Assembly: GCF_003573915.1 (NCBI RefSeq)
Contig: NZ_AP014608.1
Location: 546,001 to 610,000 of the forward strand
DNA from: Blattabacterium cuenoti STAT
Lineage (GTDB): Bacteria > Bacteroidota > Bacteroidia > Flavobacteriales > Blattabacteriaceae
Direction: 5' to 3'
DNA length: 64,000 nucleotides
The position numbers were made by a program, and so were the translations under genes. How positions within the stretch are numbered: the stretch's first letter is position 1; each line of letters starts with the position of its first letter. Shown one piece after another: positions 19,069 through 56,917 of this stretch. The notes beneath the pieces were generated by a model. That model was not told the DNA's origin, ran no database searches, and saw only the letters and a program-made list of their open reading frames with translations.

Positions 19069-19491
19069 ATGAAAAAAATAACCATTATTAATGGTCCTAA
19101 TTTAAATCTTTTAGGAACCAGAGAACCTGAATTGTACGGAAATGAAAATTTTTTAGTTTATCTTAAAAAATTAAAAAAAAAGCTATCTTATGATATAGAA
19201 ATAATTTATTATCAAAGTAATAGTGAAGGAAAAATTATAGATATTTTACACTCTGTAGGAGTTAAATCAGATGGAATAATTATAAATGCAGGTGCTTATA
19301 CTCATACTTCTATAGGAATTGCTGATGCTATAAAATCTATTTCTTCTCCTGTTATAGAAGTTCATATCTCCAATATTTATTCCAGAGAATCTTTTAGAAA
19401 AAAATCATATCTTTCTCCTGTTTGTAACGGAACAATTTTTGGTTTTGGATTAAAATCTTATGAATTAGGAATAATGAGTTTTTGTTTATAA
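19069..19491 (+). CDS. aroQ: 3-dehydroquinate dehydratase, type II
   Basis: Third step of the shikimate pathway, converting 3-dehydroquinate to 3-dehydroshikimate for aromatic amino acids. The 140-residue protein has all type II blocks: NGPNLNLLGTREPELYG with catalytic Tyr23, QSNSEGKIID, INAGAYTHTSIGIADAI, and EVHISNIYSRESFRKKSYLS containing the active-site His and Arg. Length matches the family. It is convergent with the alpha/beta hydrolase gene with 11 nt between. Retention fits nutrient provision by a symbiont, since animals cannot make aromatic amino acids. Confidence 0.95.
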   Translation: MKKITIINGPNLNLLGTREPELYGNENFLVYLKKLKKKLSYDIEIIYYQSNSEGKIIDILHSVGVKSDGIIINAGAYTHTSIGIADAIKSISSPVIEVHISNIYSRESFRKKSYLSPVCNGTIFGFGLKSYELGIMSFCL

Positions 19492-19502
19492 AAATTTTTG
19501 TT

Positions 19503-20294
19503 TTAAATACATAAGTAGTTTTTATGATTAAAATCGAATTTAGAAAGCCATTTTTCTAATATTTTTATAAATATTTTTGGATGTTCCATCATAGGAACAT
19601 GTCCACATTTATCTATCCAATGTAATTCTGAATGTGGTAACAGTCTATGAAATTCTTTTGCAACTTCCGGAGGGGTAACATGATCTTGTTTGCCCCAAAT
19701 TAAACATATAGGTTGATGAATTACAGATAAATCTTTGGACATATTGTTTTTCATAGAACTTTTGGCAATATATAATGTTTTAATTCCTTTTTTTTTATCG
19801 TTTACAATATGAAAAACTTCATCTACTAATTTTTTTGTAGCTATATCAGGATTATAGAATACTTCTTGTGATTTTTTCCTGATATATTCATAATTTTCTC
19901 TTTTAGGAAAAGCATCTCCAAAAGCTTTTTCGAATAAACCAGAACTTCCTGTTAAAACTAAAGAGTGAACTAAATCTATCTTTTTTTTTGCTATAATTAA
20001 AGCAATGTGTCCTCCAATAGAATTTCCTATTAAAGTCGCTTTTTTAATCCCTATTTCTATTAAAAATTGGGTTATATATTTAGATATATTAAAAATATTA
20101 GTTAAAAACAATGGCATATTATAAAAAGGTAATGAGGGAATAATAACTTGATATCCCTTTTTTGGAAAAAAATCAAAAATAGCTTTAAAGTTACTTAACC
20201 CTCCCATTAATCCATGAAGTAAAATTAAAGGATGACCTTTTCCTTTTTTTATGTGAGGAAATTTTTTTTTTTTATTTTCAATAATATGAAACAT
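19503..20294 (-). CDS. Alpha/beta hydrolase family protein
   Basis: A 263-residue alpha/beta hydrolase. The oxyanion-hole segment LILLHGLMGG is near residue 23, the nucleophile Ser lies in LIGNSIGGHIAL (about residue 93), the acid is probably the Asp of WGKQDHVTPPE, and the His lies in KCGHVPMMEHP. The substrate is not identifiable; relatives include esterases and meta-cleavage hydrolases. It is 15 nt downstream of rnc and may belong to the acpP-fabF-rnc transcript. The complete catalytic triad indicates a working enzyme. Confidence 0.85.
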   Translation of the reverse strand: MFHIIENKKKKFPHIKKGKGHPLILLHGLMGGLSNFKAIFDFFPKKGYQVIIPSLPFYNMPLFLTNIFNISKYITQFLIEIGIKKATLIGNSIGGHIALIIAKKKIDLVHSLVLTGSSGLFEKAFGDAFPKRENYEYIRKKSQEVFYNPDIATKKLVDEVFHIVNDKKKGIKTLYIAKSSMKNNMSKDLSVIHQPICLIWGKQDHVTPPEVAKEFHRLLPHSELHWIDKCGHVPMMEHPKIFIKILEKWLSKFDFNHKNYLCI

Positions 20295-27858: not shown

Positions 27859-28800
27859 TTGAAAATTTATTCATTGATTAATGAATTTTCTTCTCTTGAT
27901 CCATGTGTATTTACGCTTGGAATTTTTGATGGAGTTCATATAGGTCATCAAAAAATTATTAAAAATCTAATTCTTAGATCTAGAAAAAAATATTGTTCTG
28001 TTTTGCTCACCTTCCATCCACATCCAAAAGAAATATTAAATACTAATAAAAAATTTTTTTATTTAAATACTCTTTCTGAAAGAATATATAACTTAAAAAA
28101 AACAGGAATAGAACACTTGATAGTTCATCCTTTTACTACTAATTTTTCAAAATTAAGAACAAAAGATTTTTTAAAAAAAATTTTACATCCTAAATCTAAA
28201 ATTAGAAAAATCATTACTGGATATGATTCCATTATTGGAAAAAATAGAGACTCTTCTTACGAAGAATTAAAAAAAATATCTCATAAATATGGAATAAAAG
28301 TTTATAAAGTAAATCCTTATAAATTTCAAAAAAAAATAGTAAGTTCTACTCATATACGTGAGTCTCTTTTATTAGGAAATATACAATGGGCGAACCGAGC
28401 TTTGGGATATTTTTATACATTATCCGGAAATGTTATAGAAGGAAAAGGAATAGGTAAAATGATTAATTTTCCCACTGCAAATTTACAAATAGATTCTAAA
28501 AAACTGATTCCTAAACAAGGGGTTTATGCTGTAAAAATTAATTATTTAAATAACATGTATTTGGGAATGTTAAATATAGGAATAAACCCTACTCTAGAAA
28601 AAGAAAATAGAAAAATAAAAATAGAAGTGCATATATTCGATTTTTTCGAAAATATATATGGAAAAAAAATAGATATTTTAATGATTCGTATAATACGTGA
28701 AGAAAAAAAATTTAATTCAATACAAGAATTAAAAAAACAGATATGCATGGACAAAATAAATATACAGAAATTTTTTTCTTGTGAAAAAAAAATTAGATAA
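27859..28800 (+). CDS. ribF: Bifunctional riboflavin kinase / FAD synthetase
   Basis: Phosphorylates riboflavin to FMN and adenylylates FMN to FAD. The N-terminal nucleotidyltransferase domain has TLGIFDGVHIGHQ with the HIGH-like motif at residues 27-30 and LTFHPHPKEIL. The C-terminal kinase domain (about 185-305) contains GKGIGKMINFPTANLQ and GVYAVKI. Length 313 is normal. No ATG precedes the first strand; the TTG at 27859 gives MKIYSLINEF, as in relatives. A TATATTTG box at 27816-27823 is a possible promoter -7 element. The last 20 nt overlap the next gene. Confidence 0.93.
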   Translation: MKIYSLINEFSSLDPCVFTLGIFDGVHIGHQKIIKNLILRSRKKYCSVLLTFHPHPKEILNTNKKFFYLNTLSERIYNLKKTGIEHLIVHPFTTNFSKLRTKDFLKKILHPKSKIRKIITGYDSIIGKNRDSSYEELKKISHKYGIKVYKVNPYKFQKKIVSSTHIRESLLLGNIQWANRALGYFYTLSGNVIEGKGIGKMINFPTANLQIDSKKLIPKQGVYAVKINYLNNMYLGMLNIGINPTLEKENRKIKIEVHIFDFFENIYGKKIDILMIRIIREEKKFNSIQELKKQICMDKINIQKFFSCEKKIR

Positions 28801-31441
28801 AATTATTAACTCTATATTAAAAAATTTAAATTATAAAACTGTTTTTATATCAAAAGATTCTAATATTATAGAATATATTAAGAATAAATATAGTTCAAAA
28901 TTTAGTACCGAAGTTAAATTTTTTACAATAGAGGAATTTTTTGAAATTATTTCTGGACTAAAAATTTTAGACTATCATTCAATATTACTTTATTTTTTTT
29001 CTATTTTAAAAAAGGATGATTTTTCTATAGAGGAAAAATCCTACGATTTTTTTGATTGGGGACCTAAAATATTAAATAATTTTCAGAATATGGATTTTAA
29101 TATGGTCAATGTTGAAGATTTTTTTTCTTCTGTTATTTCTACAGAAAGGATAAATAAGTGGACTCTTGAATTTTTTCCCCAAAAAAAAACTTTTTTTTGG
29201 GAAAAAATTCAAGAGTCCTATTATACTTTACAATCTCAACTTTTAAAAAAAGGATTCTCTTATCATGGAATGCTTTTCAAAAAAGCTATCTCTTGTTTAG
29301 ATTCTTTTTTATCTAAAAATTTAGATACAAAAATTGTATTATTTCTTGTTCAAAATATTGCATTTTTAAATCAATGTGAAAAAATTTTTACCAAAAAAAT
29401 TATTCAAACAGGATTAGTATACGATTTATGTGCAAAAAATATTTCAATTTTTACTTTAAATTCTTTAAATGAAAAAAATATTTCGAATTCAAAAATACCT
29501 TTACAAAATGAAAATTTAAAAATAATTGGTGTTTCAAAAGAAATAGAACAAGTGAAAATTGTAAAGAACATTATATGCAAATTGATAAAAGAAAATCAAA
29601 AACCTAATAAAATACTCATAATTCCCGGAGACCAAAATTTGACTATGCCATTGGCATATTCTATAAAAAAATTAGGAATTGGTATATTTTTTAATATAGA
29701 TTTTCCATTGAATAATATTCCTATTTATTATACTTTTTATTCTATATTCCAACTATTATTAAAAAAAAATAAATTCAAAAAATTTATTAAAAAAGATGTA
29801 ATCAAAGTTTTATCTAATGGATATATACAAAAATTTTTTTTAAAAAAAAATCTAATTTTAAAAAAGCTAAATATAGAAAATGATTCGGATTTTGTTTTCG
29901 ACAATACAATAAAAAAATATTTATATAGAAATGACTTGTCGATTATTTTTGAAATCAAAACTAATGATATCAAAATGATTCTTGCAAGTCTTATTAGTTT
30001 TATTAGAAAATTTAAAAATTTTTTTTTAAAAAATAGAAAAAAACATTTTTTAGAATTAAATTTTATTTCTAAACTAGAATTTTATATACAAAAATTAAAG
30101 ATTATAGTTAGAAAAACTAAAAATTTATCTTTAAAGATAAATGATATTTTTAATATATATGAACAATTTTCTCATACAAAAAATATACGATATATACATA
30201 AAAATAGAAGAGGATTGTATATTACAGGCTTTACAGATATTTTTTTAGAAAATTTTGATGTTGTGATTATTACTTCTTTTAATGAGGGAGTGATTCCTAG
30301 AAATTATAATGATAAAGATTCTTGTTTTATTCCCTTTGAAAAAGAAAAAAAATTACAGAATAATTTTAACGAAAATTTTTATTTTCATCATTTAACGAGA
30401 ATTGTTCAATTTTCAAAAAAAACATATTTAATATATAAAGATCAACCAGACGAGATTAATTCTGGAGAAAGAAGTCGCTTTATTCATAGAATAGAAATAA
30501 ATTCCAAAATTCCGATAGAAAAAATAAAAAAACCATTTTTTCCTATAAATTCAAAAAGACTTCCTATTGTAATTAATAAAACTAAATCTATAATTCAATG
30601 TTTACATAAACTAATCAATAAAGGATTATCCCCTTCTTCTATTCATTTATATAATTATAATCCTCTTTTATTTTATTATAAGAAAATTCTTAATTTAAAG
30701 GATCCAGAAAAAATATCTCACAAAAAAAAAATAGGAAAAATTATTCATAAAATATTAAAAATTTTATATGATCCCATAAAAGAAAATTTGATAACTATTG
30801 ATTCTATTCATAAAATGAAAAAAAATTATGAATCTATCATAAAAAAAGTTTTTTTAGAAAAAAAAGAAATCATTGAAGGAAATAACATGTTTTTTTATTG
30901 TATTATAAAAAATTATGTAAAAAATTTTATTTCATGGGATGAAAAATTTATTAGACATGGACATAAAATTTTTATAAGAGAAATAGAAAAAAAAGCATAT
31001 GCAATATTAAACATAGGATCAAAAAAAATAAAATTACACGGAATTATAGATCGTATAGATGAATACGATGGAAAGATTCGTATTCTTGATTATAAAATTG
31101 GATATTCAAGAATTAAAAAAATCAATATTTCTTTAAAAAATATTGAAAATATTTTTTATGATAAAAATTATGTAAATACCATGCAATTATTAATTTATGT
31201 TTATTTATGGTTTCAATCTTCTATCTTTAAAAAAAAGAGTAAAAACAAATCTCCTATCATAGGAATTATTTCTCCAGAAATGAATGGAAATATATTACAA
31301 ATTCCTATTATAAATATTTTTCCTATTCAAAAAATAGATATTACATATGAAGATTATAAAATAAACGTTCTACCATTTCTTAAAAAAAGAATTTTTGATC
31401 TTCTAGATCCTAATATTCCAATTATAGAAAAAATTTATTGA
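28781..31441 (+). CDS. AddB-like PD-(D/E)XK nuclease family protein
   Basis: An 886-residue protein of the AddB/RexB-like class found in Bacteroidetes. The N-terminal two thirds resembles an inactivated UvrD-like helicase with no Walker A motif I can find. The C-terminal part is a RecB-family nuclease: SPSSIHLYNYNPLLFYYKKI, GKIIHKILKILY, and the catalytic GIIDRIDEYDGKIRILDYKIG (Asp, then Asp-Tyr-Lys). It would act with an AddA helicase in double-strand break repair; no addA is in the window. The start is a GTG overlapping ribF by 20 nt. A long perfect hairpin lies at 29160-29218. Convergent overlap of 7 nt with leuB. Confidence 0.8.
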   Translation: MKKKLDKIINSILKNLNYKTVFISKDSNIIEYIKNKYSSKFSTEVKFFTIEEFFEIISGLKILDYHSILLYFFSILKKDDFSIEEKSYDFFDWGPKILNNFQNMDFNMVNVEDFFSSVISTERINKWTLEFFPQKKTFFWEKIQESYYTLQSQLLKKGFSYHGMLFKKAISCLDSFLSKNLDTKIVLFLVQNIAFLNQCEKIFTKKIIQTGLVYDLCAKNISIFTLNSLNEKNISNSKIPLQNENLKIIGVSKEIEQVKIVKNIICKLIKENQKPNKILIIPGDQNLTMPLAYSIKKLGIGIFFNIDFPLNNIPIYYTFYSIFQLLLKKNKFKKFIKKDVIKVLSNGYIQKFFLKKNLILKKLNIENDSDFVFDNTIKKYLYRNDLSIIFEIKTNDIKMILASLISFIRKFKNFFLKNRKKHFLELNFISKLEFYIQKLKIIVRKTKNLSLKINDIFNIYEQFSHTKNIRYIHKNRRGLYITGFTDIFLENFDVVIITSFNEGVIPRNYNDKDSCFIPFEKEKKLQNNFNENFYFHHLTRIVQFSKKTYLIYKDQPDEINSGERSRFIHRIEINSKIPIEKIKKPFFPINSKRLPIVINKTKSIIQCLHKLINKGLSPSSIHLYNYNPLLFYYKKILNLKDPEKISHKKKIGKIIHKILKILYDPIKENLITIDSIHKMKKNYESIIKKVFLEKKEIIEGNNMFFYCIIKNYVKNFISWDEKFIRHGHKIFIREIEKKAYAILNIGSKKIKLHGIIDRIDEYDGKIRILDYKIGYSRIKKINISLKNIENIFYDKNYVNTMQLLIYVYLWFQSSIFKKKSKNKSPIIGIISPEMNGNILQIPIINIFPIQKIDITYEDYKINVLPFLKKRIFDLLDPNIPIIEKIY
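29160..29218. repeat. 20-bp perfect inverted repeat inside the AddB-like gene
   Basis: The arm 29160-29179 (starting GGACTCTTGAA, then T6 and CCC) is the exact reverse complement of 29199-29218. The 19-nt middle is C, nine A, C and eight T, and can itself pair for eight more A-T pairs. The whole structure is in frame within the coding sequence, encoding about residues 127-146. Confidence 0.9.
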
Positions 31442-37806: not shown

Positions 37807-39081
37807 ATGCAAAATATTATTGATGAACTCTCATGGAGAGGTTTAATTAAAAATAAAGTTCCTGGTGTAGAAAATCAATTGAAAAAACCTACTACCATGT
37901 ATATAGGTTTTGATCCTACATCTGATTCTTTACACGTAGGAAGTCTTTTACCTATTATTATGTTAATTCATTTTCAAAAAAAAGGACATAAATCTTTAGC
38001 ATTAATTGGGGGATCTACAGGATTTATAGGAGATCCTTCAGAAAAAAAAGATCGAAGAATCTTTTTGAGTAAAAAAAATTTGGAAAAAAATTCGGAATCT
38101 ATAAAAAATCAAATATTAAGACTTTTAAAAGTTTATTCAAAAAAAATAGAATTGTTAAATAATTTTGATTGGATTAAAAATATTCCTTTTATCGATTTTA
38201 TTCGTGAAATAGGAAAATATATTACTGTAAATCAAATGATATCTAAAGATTCTGTAAAAAAAAGAATTCATAATAAGAAAAACGGGATATCTTTTACTGA
38301 ATTTTCTTATTCTCTTATACAAGGATATGATTTTTTGTATTTAAACCAAGTCAAAAATTGCCAACTGCAAGTTGGGGGGTCTGACCAATGGGGAAATATC
38401 ACAACAGGGATAGAATTAATTCGAAAAAAAACAGGAAAAAAAGTATATGGATTTACTTTTCCTTTAATTACTCAATCTAATGGAATTAAATTTGGAAAAA
38501 GTGAGAAAGGAGAAAATATATGGCTAGACGAAAAAAAAACATCTCCATATAAATTTTATCAATTTTGGATGAATCTTTCTGATTTTGAAATCGAAAAGTA
38601 TATTAAAATATATACTTTTTTATCTAAAGAAAAAATTGAAAATTTGATTTTTGAACATAAAAAACATCCAAATAGAAGATTCTTGCAAAGAAAACTAGCT
38701 AATGAAATTACTGAATGGGTTCATGGAAATGAAATTTCCAAAAAAATGATAGAAATTACGAGTATTTTATTTGGAAAAAAAAATAAACCCCTTCAATTAT
38801 TAAATGAGAAAACTTTTATTTCTATATATAATCATATTCCACATATGTTTATATCTTATGAAAATTTTGAAAAAGGAATTTTTTTATTAGATCTCTTAAA
38901 AAAAAGTGGTTTTTTTTCTTCTAAAAGTAAAGCGAATCGTGCTTTAAAAGAAAATTCAATTCATTTAAATCAAATTCTTGTAAAAGAAAATATTTTGATT
39001 AAAAAAGAAAACATAATAGGAAAAAAATATATTTTATTTCAATTTGGAAAAAAAGAATTTTTTATTATAAAAATTGAATAA
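37807..39081 (+). CDS. tyrS: Tyrosyl-tRNA synthetase
   Basis: Class I synthetase charging tRNA-Tyr, 424 residues. The tyrosine-binding and HIGH-like region is YIGFDPTSDSLHVGSLLPI; the KMSKS equivalent is KFGKSEKGENIW. Also conserved are GYDFLYLNQ and GGSDQWGNITTG. A C-terminal S4 RNA-binding domain (about residues 355-420) is present. The start at ATG 37807 gives the usual N-terminus. Convergent with era, 11 nt apart. Confidence 0.96.
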   Translation: MQNIIDELSWRGLIKNKVPGVENQLKKPTTMYIGFDPTSDSLHVGSLLPIIMLIHFQKKGHKSLALIGGSTGFIGDPSEKKDRRIFLSKKNLEKNSESIKNQILRLLKVYSKKIELLNNFDWIKNIPFIDFIREIGKYITVNQMISKDSVKKRIHNKKNGISFTEFSYSLIQGYDFLYLNQVKNCQLQVGGSDQWGNITTGIELIRKKTGKKVYGFTFPLITQSNGIKFGKSEKGENIWLDEKKTSPYKFYQFWMNLSDFEIEKYIKIYTFLSKEKIENLIFEHKKHPNRRFLQRKLANEITEWVHGNEISKKMIEITSILFGKKNKPLQLLNEKTFISIYNHIPHMFISYENFEKGIFLLDLLKKSGFFSSKSKANRALKENSIHLNQILVKENILIKKENIIGKKYILFQFGKKEFFIIKIE

Positions 39082-39092
39082 CTTTAATACCA

Positions 39093-39976
39093 TCAATATC
39101 CAAAATTTTTTAATTTTTTATAATCATATCTCCAGTTTTTACAAACTTCTACATCCAATGTCAATTGGATTTTTTTCTTAAAAAAAGATTCTATACTATT
39201 TATAGAAAAAAGTTTTAATTTTTTAATAGCATTTCCTTTTTTTCCTATTAATATTCCCTTTTGAGAAGGTCTTTCTACATATATATATGATAATATATAT
39301 ATAAAAGTATTTTTAACTTTAAAAAATTTTGTCTGTATTTCTACAGAATAAGGAATTTCTTTTTTATAGAAAAAAAATATTTTTTCTCTTATAATTTCAT
39401 TAACAAAAAAACGTTCAGATCTATTACTTAGATAATTTTTTTTAGGATAAAAAGGTGGATGTTCAGATAATAAAGATATTATTTTATTCATTAATAGATC
39501 TTGATTCATTTTTTTTAATGCAGATATCGGTAATATTTCTGAATTAGGAAATAATTTATGCCAATAGTTTATTGTATAATATAATGTATCTTTTTTATAT
39601 TGTATTCCAATTTTATCAATTTTATTAATCAATATAATAATAGGAACATTTTTTTTTTAATGTGATTAAATAATGAAACATTTTCAAATTTTCCTATTTC
39701 TGTAGTAAATAGAATAATATCTGCATCTTCCAATGATTTTTTCACATATTCCATCATAATTTTTTGCATGGGATAAATAGGATCAATAATACCCGGAGTA
39801 TCCGAAAATATAATCTGAAAATCAGATCTATTTACGATTCCTAATATTCTATGACGAGTAGTTTGTGGTTTTTTTGTGATAATAGAAAGTTTTTCTCCTA
39901 CAAGAGAATTCATTAAGGTAGATTTTCCTACATTAGGAAATCCTATAATATTAACAAAACCGGATTTATGAATCAT
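39093..39976 (-). pseudogene. era: GTPase Era, interrupted by a frameshift in a poly(A) tract
   Basis: Era is a GTPase with a KH domain needed for 16S rRNA maturation and 30S assembly. The 5' part (39629-39976) carries G1 GFPNVGKST, the switch segment QTTRHRI and G3 DTPG. The 3' part carries G4 NKID (about 39619-39629), G5 ISALK and the KH domain with GILIGKKGNAIKKL. The two are in different frames. The break falls in a run of ten A on the coding strand (39649-39658). One added A, or two fewer, gives [15 protein letters not shown], the normal family sequence. Everything else looks intact, so this may be rescued by polymerase slippage, be a sequencing error, or be a recent lesion. Confidence 0.85.
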
Positions 39977-39993: not shown

Positions 39994-42624
39994 TTAAATA
40001 TTTATATTTTCAATTTTTTCTGACTGTCGAAATACAATTCCTTTTTCTTTGAAAAAATCTATTAGAATTTTATGATTTTTTTTAATTTTTCCTTTTATGA
40101 TTTCTTTAGAAAGATAATTCAAAATATCATGTTGAATCACTCTTTTTAAAGGTCTTGCTCCAAAATGAGGATCATATCCTTTTTCGGATAAATATTCTAT
40201 AGCTTCATTAGTCGATTCTATTAATATATTTTTTTTATCATGTAGTAATTTTCCTAATTTTTTCATTTGAAGTTTAACAATATCTTTTATCTCTTTTCTA
40301 GAAAGAGGATTAAACAAAATGATTTCATCTATACGATTAATAAATTCAGGTCTTACTACATTTTTCAATAAATTTATTAAATCTTTTTTTGTTTCTTCCA
40401 TTCTATTTCTACTAGAAGAAAATTCTTTATCCAATTTTTTCTGAATGATATTTGCTCCTATATTGGAAGTCATAATAATAATAGTATTTGTAAAATTAAC
40501 CGTTCTTCCTTTATTATCCGTTAGTCTTCCATCATCCAAAATTTGTAAAAGTATGTTAAAAACATCTGAATGAGCTTTTTCTATTTCGTCTAACAAAATA
40601 ACACTATAAGGACGTCTTCGTATAGCTTCTGTTAATTGTCCACTTTCATCATAACCTATATATCCAGGAGGAGCTCCTATGAATCGACTTACAGAATGAC
40701 GTTCTTGATATTCGCTCATATCTATACGAACCATATTATTTTCATCATCAAATAAATATTCTGCTAAAGTTTTAGCTAGTTCTGTTTTTCCTACTCCTGT
40801 ACAACCCATAAAAAGAAAAGATCCTATAGGTTTTTTTTCATCTTGTAATCCTGCTCTAGAACGTCGTATAGAATCTGCTATAGATTGAATAGCATTATCT
40901 TGTCCTATCACTCTTTTGTGTAATTCTTTTTCCAAGAATAATAATTTTTCTTTCTCGCTTTGCAACATTTTAGTAACAGGAATTCCTGTCCATTTAGATA
41001 CGATTTGAGCTATATCTTCTCTATAAACTTCTTCTTGTATCATTTTATTCCCCTTATATTCTTGTTTTTTTAATTCATTTTCTAATATTTTAACTTTATT
41101 TTCTTTTTCTTTGATTTTACCATATCTTAGTTCTGCTACTTTTCCATAATCTCCTGATCTTTCAGCCTGTTCTGCTTCAAATTTATAATTTTCTATTTTA
41201 TCTTTCGCTTTTTGAATTTCTTCAACTAAATCTTTTTCATTTTGCCACTGAGTTTGCAGTTTTGTTTTCTCTTTATTTAATTTATATAATTCTTTTTTTA
41301 AAGGAATTAATTGTTTTTCATCATTTTCTCTTTTTAAAGCTTCTACTTGTATTTCCATATGCATGATTTTTCTATACAGAATATCTAATTTTTCTGGTTT
41401 TGAATTTATCTCCATTCTTAATTTAGAAGCAGCCTCATCTATAAGATCAATAGCTTTATCTGGTAGAAAACGTTCATTAATATAACGTTTAGACAATTCT
41501 ACAGCAGATATAATAGATTCATCTTTTATTCTTACTTTATGATGACTTTCGTATTTTTCTTTAATTCCACGTAATATAGATATTGCATCATCAATAGAAG
41601 GTTCATCTACATATACTTGTTGGAATCTTCTTTCTAAAGCTTTATCTATTCTGAAATATTTTTGATATTCATTTAAAGTTGTAGCTCCTATAGCTCTAAG
41701 TTCTCCTCTAGCTAATGCAGGTTTTAAAATATTGGCGGCATCTATAGCCCCTTCGCCTCCTCCTGCACCAATTAAAGTATGAATTTCATCAATAAATAAA
41801 ATAATTTCTCCATCTGAAAATATTACTTCTTTGACTACGGCCTTCAGTCTTTCTTCAAATTCTCCTTTGTATTTAGCTCCTGCAATTATAGAAGCCATAT
41901 CTAAAGAAAATATTTGTTTATTTTTTAAATTATCTGGAATATCTTCACTAATAATACGATGAGCTAATCCTTCAGCAATCGCTGTTTTTCCTACTCCTGC
42001 TTCTCCTATCAATATAGGATTGTTCTTTGTTCTTCTAGATAATATTTGCAAAACTCTACGGATTTCTTCATCACGTCCAATAACAGGATCTAATTTACCT
42101 CTGTAAGCCCATTCATTAAGATTTTTTGCATATTTATCCAAAGCATTATAAATATTCTCTGCTGTAGAAGAGATGATTTTTCCGTTTTTTTTTCTCATAT
42201 ATTCAATAATTTCTTTTATTTTTTTTTTCGTGATTCCTTCATCTTTTAGTAATTTCGAAGTAAAATCAAAACTCATAAAAATTCCATAAAAAATATGCTC
42301 TATAGAAATAAATTTATCTTTTAATGTATGAGCGTAATTTTCTGCAATATTCAACATTTTTGTTACATATAAACTAAAATGTAAAGTCAAAGGTCCACTA
42401 ATAATTTTTGGATAATGAGAAATCATACGGTCTAATCCAATAGTTATTGATTGAAAATTTATTTTTAATTTTTTGAAAAAAAAAGGAATTATATTTTTTT
42501 CAATTTCTAACATTGATTTTAAAATATGTGCATTTTCAACAGTTTGTTGACTATTTTTTAACGTTAAATACTGTGCTTTTTGTATTACTTCTTGTGATTT
42601 AATCGTAAACTTATTATAATCCAT
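39994..42624 (-). CDS. clpB: ATP-dependent chaperone ClpB
   Basis: AAA+ disaggregase of 876 residues that works with DnaK to rescue aggregated proteins. Domains in order: Clp N-terminal repeat (about 1-145), first ATPase with Walker A GEAGVGKT and Walker [18 protein letters not shown], the ClpB-specific coiled-coil middle domain (about 400-530), second ATPase with Walker [13 protein letters not shown] and [11 protein letters not shown], and the C-terminal domain ([13 protein letters not shown]). The second Walker A has Cys where Pro is common. The middle domain distinguishes it from ClpA/ClpC. Divergent from prfB across 94 nt. Confidence 0.97.
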
Positions 42625-55771: not shown

Positions 55772-56917
55772 ATGATTTTTTCTGTTTTGAGTTCTTTTCT
55801 ATTAAAAAAATTATATACTTTATATAAAATTATAAATATTAATAAATTATCGAATTTAATTACTTTTGAAGTATCGAAAAAAAATCAATTAAAAATTATA
55901 TGGGGGTTAGATTCAAAAAATATAATTCATACATATTTGAAAATCAATATCCTGAAATATACAAAAGAAAAAGTAACTCTATCTATCAAATTTATGATAG
56001 ATATTTTAACTACATTTTCAAATGAAAAACTTTTTTTAAAAAAGGAGAAATATACACTTAATATTTATTCTAAACAAGGAGTTTATAAAATTCCTACTTA
56101 TTATGATTCAAATCATTATGATGATAGATTATATAAATCTTCTCTTGTTCATAAAATTTCTTTGTTTTCCAAGTTATTTTTAAAAATATTAAATAAAACT
56201 TTATTTTTTTCTACTACTGAAGATGAAGAATTAAAACCCGTATTAAATGGAGTTTTTTTTCAATTTTTTACTCATGAAGCAAATTTCATAGCAACAGATA
56301 CTTATAGACTTATTAAGTATACTATAAAAAACTTTAAAACAAATCAAGAGATACAATTTACCATATCAAGAAAATATCTTACTATAATTCGTGAAATTTT
56401 AAAAAACGAAAAAAAAAATAATATTATTATTGAATATTCTGAAAAAGAAAATATAATTTTTTATTTTAAAAATTACATTTTTTCATGTCAACTAATAAAT
56501 AAAAAATATCCAGACTATCGTTCTGTAATTCCTAATAATAATCAATGTCATGTATCTTTTGTTATTAATAAATTTTTATTATTAAATACTATTAAAAGAA
56601 TATCTATTTTTTCTAAAAAGAAAAAGAATTTTATTAATTTTCATTTTTTTAATTATAAAAAATTAAAAATTTATGACGAAAATACAACTGATATTCATAA
56701 TTCTATTTCAGAAATAAAATGTAAAGTTCTTTTAAATGATCTGAAAAATATAAAAATAGGTTTTAACTCTAAATTTTTAATTGAAATTTTATCTTCTTTA
56801 AATGAAGATTTTATTTATTTTGAATTATATCAAAAAATGGGAATTATAAGACCTATATATAAGAAAAAAAAAGAAGAATCAATTTTGATATTAATTATGT
56901 CTATCATAAAAATATGA
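55772..56917 (+). CDS. dnaN: DNA polymerase III beta subunit (sliding clamp)
   Basis: Ring-shaped processivity clamp, 381 residues. Recognisable blocks are ELKPVLNGVFFQF with FIATDTYRLIKY (domain 2), the KKYPDYRSVIPNN segment and the C-terminal GFNSKFLIEILSSL. The protein is quite diverged and lysine-rich: the C-terminal LIMSIIKI replaces the common MPMRL-type ending that shapes the partner-binding pocket. It follows tRNA-CAU by 46 nt and overlaps pheT as ATGA, so the two are probably co-translated. Confidence 0.9.
   Translation: MIFSVLSSFLLKKLYTLYKIININKLSNLITFEVSKKNQLKIIWGLDSKNIIHTYLKINILKYTKEKVTLSIKFMIDILTTFSNEKLFLKKEKYTLNIYSKQGVYKIPTYYDSNHYDDRLYKSSLVHKISLFSKLFLKILNKTLFFSTTEDEELKPVLNGVFFQFFTHEANFIATDTYRLIKYTIKNFKTNQEIQFTISRKYLTIIREILKNEKKNNIIIEYSEKENIIFYFKNYIFSCQLINKKYPDYRSVIPNNNQCHVSFVINKFLLLNTIKRISIFSKKKKNFINFHFFNYKKLKIYDENTTDIHNSISEIKCKVLLNDLKNIKIGFNSKFLIEILSSLNEDFIYFELYQKMGIIRPIYKKKKEESILILIMSIIKI

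Follow-up and report, generated by a model that had tools for sequence, protein, structure and literature searches.

Era is a GTPase whose gene, era, is normally essential. In the window analysed here, a stretch of 64,000 nucleotides comprising bases 546001-610000 of the 631,621-bp genome of Blattabacterium cuenoti STAT (the source genome), a cockroach endosymbiont whose genus has small, AT-rich genomes, era is split by one -1 frameshift at a run of ten adenines (39093-39976, minus strand), and the question is whether such a gene is dead or still decoded. An earlier note on this DNA had proposed the latter, through slippage of RNA polymerase on the run.

Structure of the era locus

The division of era into two frames described in the earlier note was confirmed by a frameshift-aware protein-DNA alignment and by Era profile matches to both pieces. 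The alignment contained exactly one event, a -1 shift at the tract, and zero stops, which bears out the further claim that the gene has no other damage. The joint had also been placed correctly: reading from the start codon at 39976 on the minus strand, the coding strand at the tract is ATT AAAAAAAAAA TGTTCC, with ten A at 39658-39649, and eleven A, or eight, would restore the frame. The downstream open frame reaches upstream into this tract. Other features are listed in Table 1.

Table 1. Features of the window referred to in the text, numbered from its first nucleotide
Feature	Position	Strand	Remarks
aroQ (type II 3-dehydroquinate dehydratase)	19069..19491	+	Intact in source genome, A9 run
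AddB-like nuclease gene	28781..31441	+	Intact in source genome
tyrS-type gene	37807..39081	+	Convergent with era; synteny anchor and control; no break in any of the 49 genomes
era, downstream frame	39093..39632	-	179 aa counted from TTG; stop at 39093
KH domain	39129-39359		In era downstream frame
G4 NKID	39615-39626		In era downstream frame
era, upstream frame	39629..39976	-	115 aa; TGA just past the shift
A10 tract, site of -1 frameshift	39649..39658	-	Homologous tract in frame, A11, in close relatives
G3 DTPG	39791-39802		In era upstream frame
G1 GFPNVGKS	39920-39943		In era upstream frame
clpB-type ATPase gene (presumed)	39994..42624	-	Directly upstream of era; synteny anchor and selection control
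dnaN (sliding clamp)	55772..56911	+	Single copy, intact in source genome

Both pieces were assigned to Era by NCBIfam (PRK00089/TIGR00436), while Pfam identified MMR_HSR1 in the upstream piece and KH_2 in the downstream piece. They cover positions 1-104 and 117-291 of the PRK00089 profile, and the Era architecture is present across them, namely a GTPase domain with G1, G3 and G4 and, C-terminal to it, a KH domain. At 100 and 94 bits, each piece scores below the family cut-off of 116, and the A10 tract leaves no continuous frame. An intact second copy was sought across the whole genome and none was found; other Era-like matches proved to be GTPases in different long open frames, which are also present in era-intact relatives. 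The gene upstream of era is presumed to encode a clpB-type product.

Distribution of era across the genus

The comparison set comprised 49 genomes of the genus, i.e., the source genome and 48 congeners. One assembly, G046, had -1 frameshifts only, about nine of them within 65 kb and at A7-A10 runs, including in secDF- and pckA-type genes; it is probably an error-prone assembly with homopolymer under-calling, which could mislead pseudogene counts, and it was left out of counts where possible.

era was intact in 36 genomes, where it formed one frame of 293-322 aa; it carried a single lesion in four (the source genome, G028, G044 and G046), was decayed in three (G021, G012 and G034) and was deleted without trace in six. 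The tyrS, rpoC, dnaE and ksgA genes were unbroken in all 49. In a FastTree phylogeny of tyrS and ClpB, each era-defective genome had an era-intact near relative, and the defects were resolved into 11-13 independent events, the range being set by weakly supported nodes. The frameshift of the source genome was not common to its sisters. era is therefore dispensable in this genus and has been lost repeatedly, and the premise of the earlier note that the gene is essential here was wrong. Losses of this kind show that the function need not be kept, which counts against reading the split gene as a leaky allele. The dispensability is peculiar to the genus rather than general among reduced flavobacterial symbionts, since Karelsulcia, with a far smaller genome, retains era intact beside tyrS (outgroup era loci came mostly from free-living Bacteroidota, of which Karelsulcia alone was used).

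Comparison of the tract itself, which had been recommended previously, showed that intact relatives, among them G015, G016, G019, G030, G031, G033 and G048, have A11, and that the homologous tract is contracted in four other genomes. The tract was one base shorter in G028, G046 and G021, as in the source genome, and G044 had an equivalent one-base loss; in the decayed gene of G021, the A10 contraction was accompanied by two later indels. The lesion in the source genome is real: a mutation-prone A11 tract has lost one base, and this -1 change is the only one in the gene.

Selection on the split gene and age of the lesion

Under a three-taxon codon model, omega for era on the terminal branch of the source genome was 0.08-0.10 (95% range 0.05-0.20), over a branch of about 0.34 neutral substitutions per site; this matched intact sisters and controls. 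The value for G044 was 0.11, again as in intact sisters, and the shorter and less certain branches of G046 and G028 gave 0.23 and 0.33. In a dead era, stop-creating mutations were expected at about 80 per neutral substitution per site, or about 25 over the whole branch, and none was seen; therefore, any dead period lasted at most about 0.04 substitutions per site, i.e., some 10-15% of the branch. Neither of the marks of a pseudogene, a second lesion or a raised omega, was found in era, but a very recent null would look alike, and indeed low omega and the absence of further lesions are equally given by a very recent mutation.

The main rival to a leaky gene is accordingly a young null pseudogene, in which a recent contraction killed era, the cell obtains no useful Era, and further lesions have not yet had time to build up. 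The six deletions and three decayed copies lie on separate branches and agree with such a view, as does G021, where the same contraction shows that the lesion can start decay; the bounds from stops and omega allow the death of era within the final portion of the branch, and engB, another ribosome GTPase gene, has also been lost in the source genome and its sisters. Against this, single-lesion copies are over-represented. If loss of function were instant, and loss times evenly spread along terminal branches, no more than about 0.6 of the 13 defects would be expected in the single-lesion state, whereas 4 were seen (p ~0.002); without G046, there were 3 (p ~0.01-0.02). The one-lesion state recurs, moreover, in genes that are never lost, as described below. 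A recent null is thus a possibility that we take seriously, while judging it doubtful.

Frameshifts in genes that are never lost

Other genes in the window were scanned for frameshifts across the genus. None of the 49 genomes lacks aroQ or the AddB-like gene. aroQ was frameshifted at one A run (A9-A13), the one that is in frame as A9 in the source genome, in seven genomes including G046, or six without it; all of these frameshifts were -1, with no other lesion and both halves intact. The near relatives G026 and G037 shared a site, through common ancestry or in parallel. The AddB-like gene was split by an A/T-run frameshift in 14 genomes including G046 (13 without), all of them -1 and single in each genome except for one with two, while the 2.7 kb was otherwise open; a homologous run was often hit repeatedly. 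The counts exclude apparent events less than about 15 residues from either end, which were treated as alignment artefacts, and also one more -1 close to the C-terminus in G042. Sites were common to three pairs of near relatives (G047/G001, G017/G020 and G025/G026), where shared ancestry and parallel change are both possible.

The part of the AddB-like gene downstream of these frameshifts would be untranslated without rescue, yet omega remained at 0.12-0.25 in most tested lineages, which favours rescue; on the short branches of G017 (0.33) and G020 (0.55), neutrality was not rejected. Were neutrality instant, nine lineages would all stand at one lesion with a probability of about 5e-15, and the number of lineages makes a recent origin of those lesions implausible. 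One-lesion copies of aroQ and the AddB-like gene suggest that such frameshifts are often tolerated, probably through slippage. The run at residues ~136-156 of the AddB-like gene, one base shorter in seven relatives, is the strongest candidate for frameshift rescue across the genus.

Direction of frameshifts

Outside G046, 27 of 28 single-lesion frameshifts belonged to the -1 class; among the extra lesions of decayed era genes, only 3 of 12 did so, most being +1 (Fisher p = 7e-6). The contrast persisted when sister cases were merged (p = 2e-5). In Buchnera, 151 of 157 transcriptional insertions fell in homopolymer runs and rose with run length, compared with 16 of 57 deletions (PMC5574713). Because insertions, and not deletions, concentrate in A/T runs, slippage would repair -1 frameshifts only and not +1, as observed. 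The direction bias had been noticed before these insertion data, and the agreement is a fit rather than a blind test; the same study saw no frame-restoring transcription error in Buchnera (PMC5574713). A -1 excess would equally arise if mutation tended to shorten long runs or if run lengths were under-called. For estimating that mutational tendency, intergenic runs provided only four length differences, none of them polarised. Between sister pairs, coding runs of at least 8 had the same length in 285 of 294 comparisons, and about 2% of other coding runs of at least 10 were out of frame; that run-length changes are rare and so few long runs out of frame suggests that rescue is too poor for most genes.

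Explanations of the split era

Our preferred reading, held tentatively at close to, though short of, an even chance, is that era is leaky and not dead, some messages acquiring one A from RNA polymerase and giving full-length Era at a reduced level. What we infer is slippage at the era tract, a sufficient yield of protein and tolerance of reduced Era. In some of the messages the polymerase would copy one A twice, turning A10 into A11; these messages would be translated into full-length Era in lowered amount; and the genus, already moving towards loss of era, would for that reason tolerate the shortfall. The rescue proposed originally is indirectly favoured by apparently unrelaxed selection on the branch and by the -1 A/T-run frameshifts of never-lost genes throughout the genus, while the essentiality on which it had also relied fails. 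A broader proposal, to be regarded as a serious but tentative possibility, is that the genus tolerates almost only -1 frameshifts in A/T runs of low-dosage genes (AddB-like, aroQ, era, dnaN and engB) because the polymerase inserts a nucleotide often enough; genes would then flip in and out of frame over the long term, with era moving between leaky expression and loss.

The frame might instead be restored by -1 ribosomal frameshifting on A AAA AAA. By hand reading, this heptamer lies in the upstream frame of the tract, and a -1 shift there would yield a protein identical to that from A11 mRNA; the single lesions of era, aroQ and the AddB-like gene are all -1 and at A or T runs, as ribosomal slippage needs. 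However, no stimulatory structure was found downstream of the tract (folding z-score -0.57), and it is insertion by slippage in A/T runs that has been documented in an insect symbiont (PMC5574713); the literature consulted did not show ribosomal rescue there. This mechanism is unlikely.

Sequencing or assembly error, such that the genome is truly A11, is very unlikely in the source genome. G046 demonstrates that -1-only patterns can come from error, and for that assembly error is the likely account. Yet the 52 genes of the window in the source genome contain 28-31 coding A/T runs of at least 10, including two of A14, and only the era tract was out of frame. In ten assemblies without G046, era runs were out of frame far more than runs of other genes (Fisher p = 6e-5), and errors would need to have fallen on era in 4 of about 8 out-of-frame cases, though the gene holds few long runs. 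That the halves of era, both open and conserved, are translated independently and act together is scarcely credible, as G4 and G5 are missing from the upstream half, the downstream half has its nearest start at a TTG within the G4 region, and relatives keep era as one frame.

Comparison with known systems

Rescue of a frame by slippage is a phenomenon of a known kind. As the earlier note had stated, rescue of poly(A) frameshifts in this way has been described in Buchnera and Blochmannia (Tamas et al. 2008 and Wernegreen et al. 2010, as summarised in PMC3017870 and PMC5009743); corrected transcripts make up 12-50% in aphid and ant symbionts (PMC5009743), and eight candidate genes were listed for Blochmannia vafer (PMC3017870). 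era resembles those cases in belonging to an AT-rich insect endosymbiont, with one indel, located in an A run of about 10, an otherwise intact gene, intact orthologues in relatives and apparently maintained selection. It differs in that the host of the gene is a member of the Bacteroidota rather than the Gammaproteobacteria, that era has been lost outright in several relatives, that the -1 bias is strong, and that the case is known from DNA alone. No report of slippage rescue in Blattabacterium was found in the literature searched, which lacked some key papers.

Gene erosion in symbionts has also been described as starting from homopolymer indels (Moran et al. 2009, as cited in PMC3017870). 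The case of era is similar in that a hotspot tract has contracted in a gene that parallel lineages have lost, and in that contraction was followed by decay in G021; it differs in that, against the prediction of instant neutrality, single-lesion copies are too common and too well conserved. Genes with programmed frameshifting or slippage, such as dnaX, have the A run and the -1 direction in common with era; unlike them, era is not programmed, being a single frame in intact relatives and having no detected stimulatory structure.

Were the preferred reading true, slippage rescue would no longer be confined to two gammaproteobacterial symbionts but would recur in a symbiont of the Bacteroidota from which dozens of species have been sequenced. 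The test of direction (-1 tolerated, +1 not) would separate rescued from dying genes by sequence alone, and automatic pseudogene calls in AT-rich symbionts would miscount gene content, as for era, aroQ, dnaN and the recombination nuclease.

Other gene losses

Three genomes, G015, G030 and G032, had dnaN frameshifted at runs of A11-A13 (two -1, one +1). The gene was deleted in a clade of eight relatives, where the flanking genes, when measured, were about 180-260 bp apart, and was dropped as an essential-gene control for this reason. The ribosome-assembly GTPase gene engB/ysxC was missing from the source genome (at ~19500-20200), from G015 and G016, and from six others, and was broken in G011 and G037, both single-lesion cases. 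Loss of engB overlapped with era defects in the source genome only, which was not significant. Two apparent results were rejected: a 'split' engB in G030 was a masked run of N, and R62 'frameshifts' in every genome reflected a faulty reference drawn from one genome.

Two further observations concerned neighbouring regions. For the clpB gene next to era, neither G001 nor G041 gave a clear full match, which suggests decay or loss in that clade. G015 appears to be without leucine genes (leuA, leuB and leuC/D-type), which in relatives correspond to ~31-36 kb of the window.
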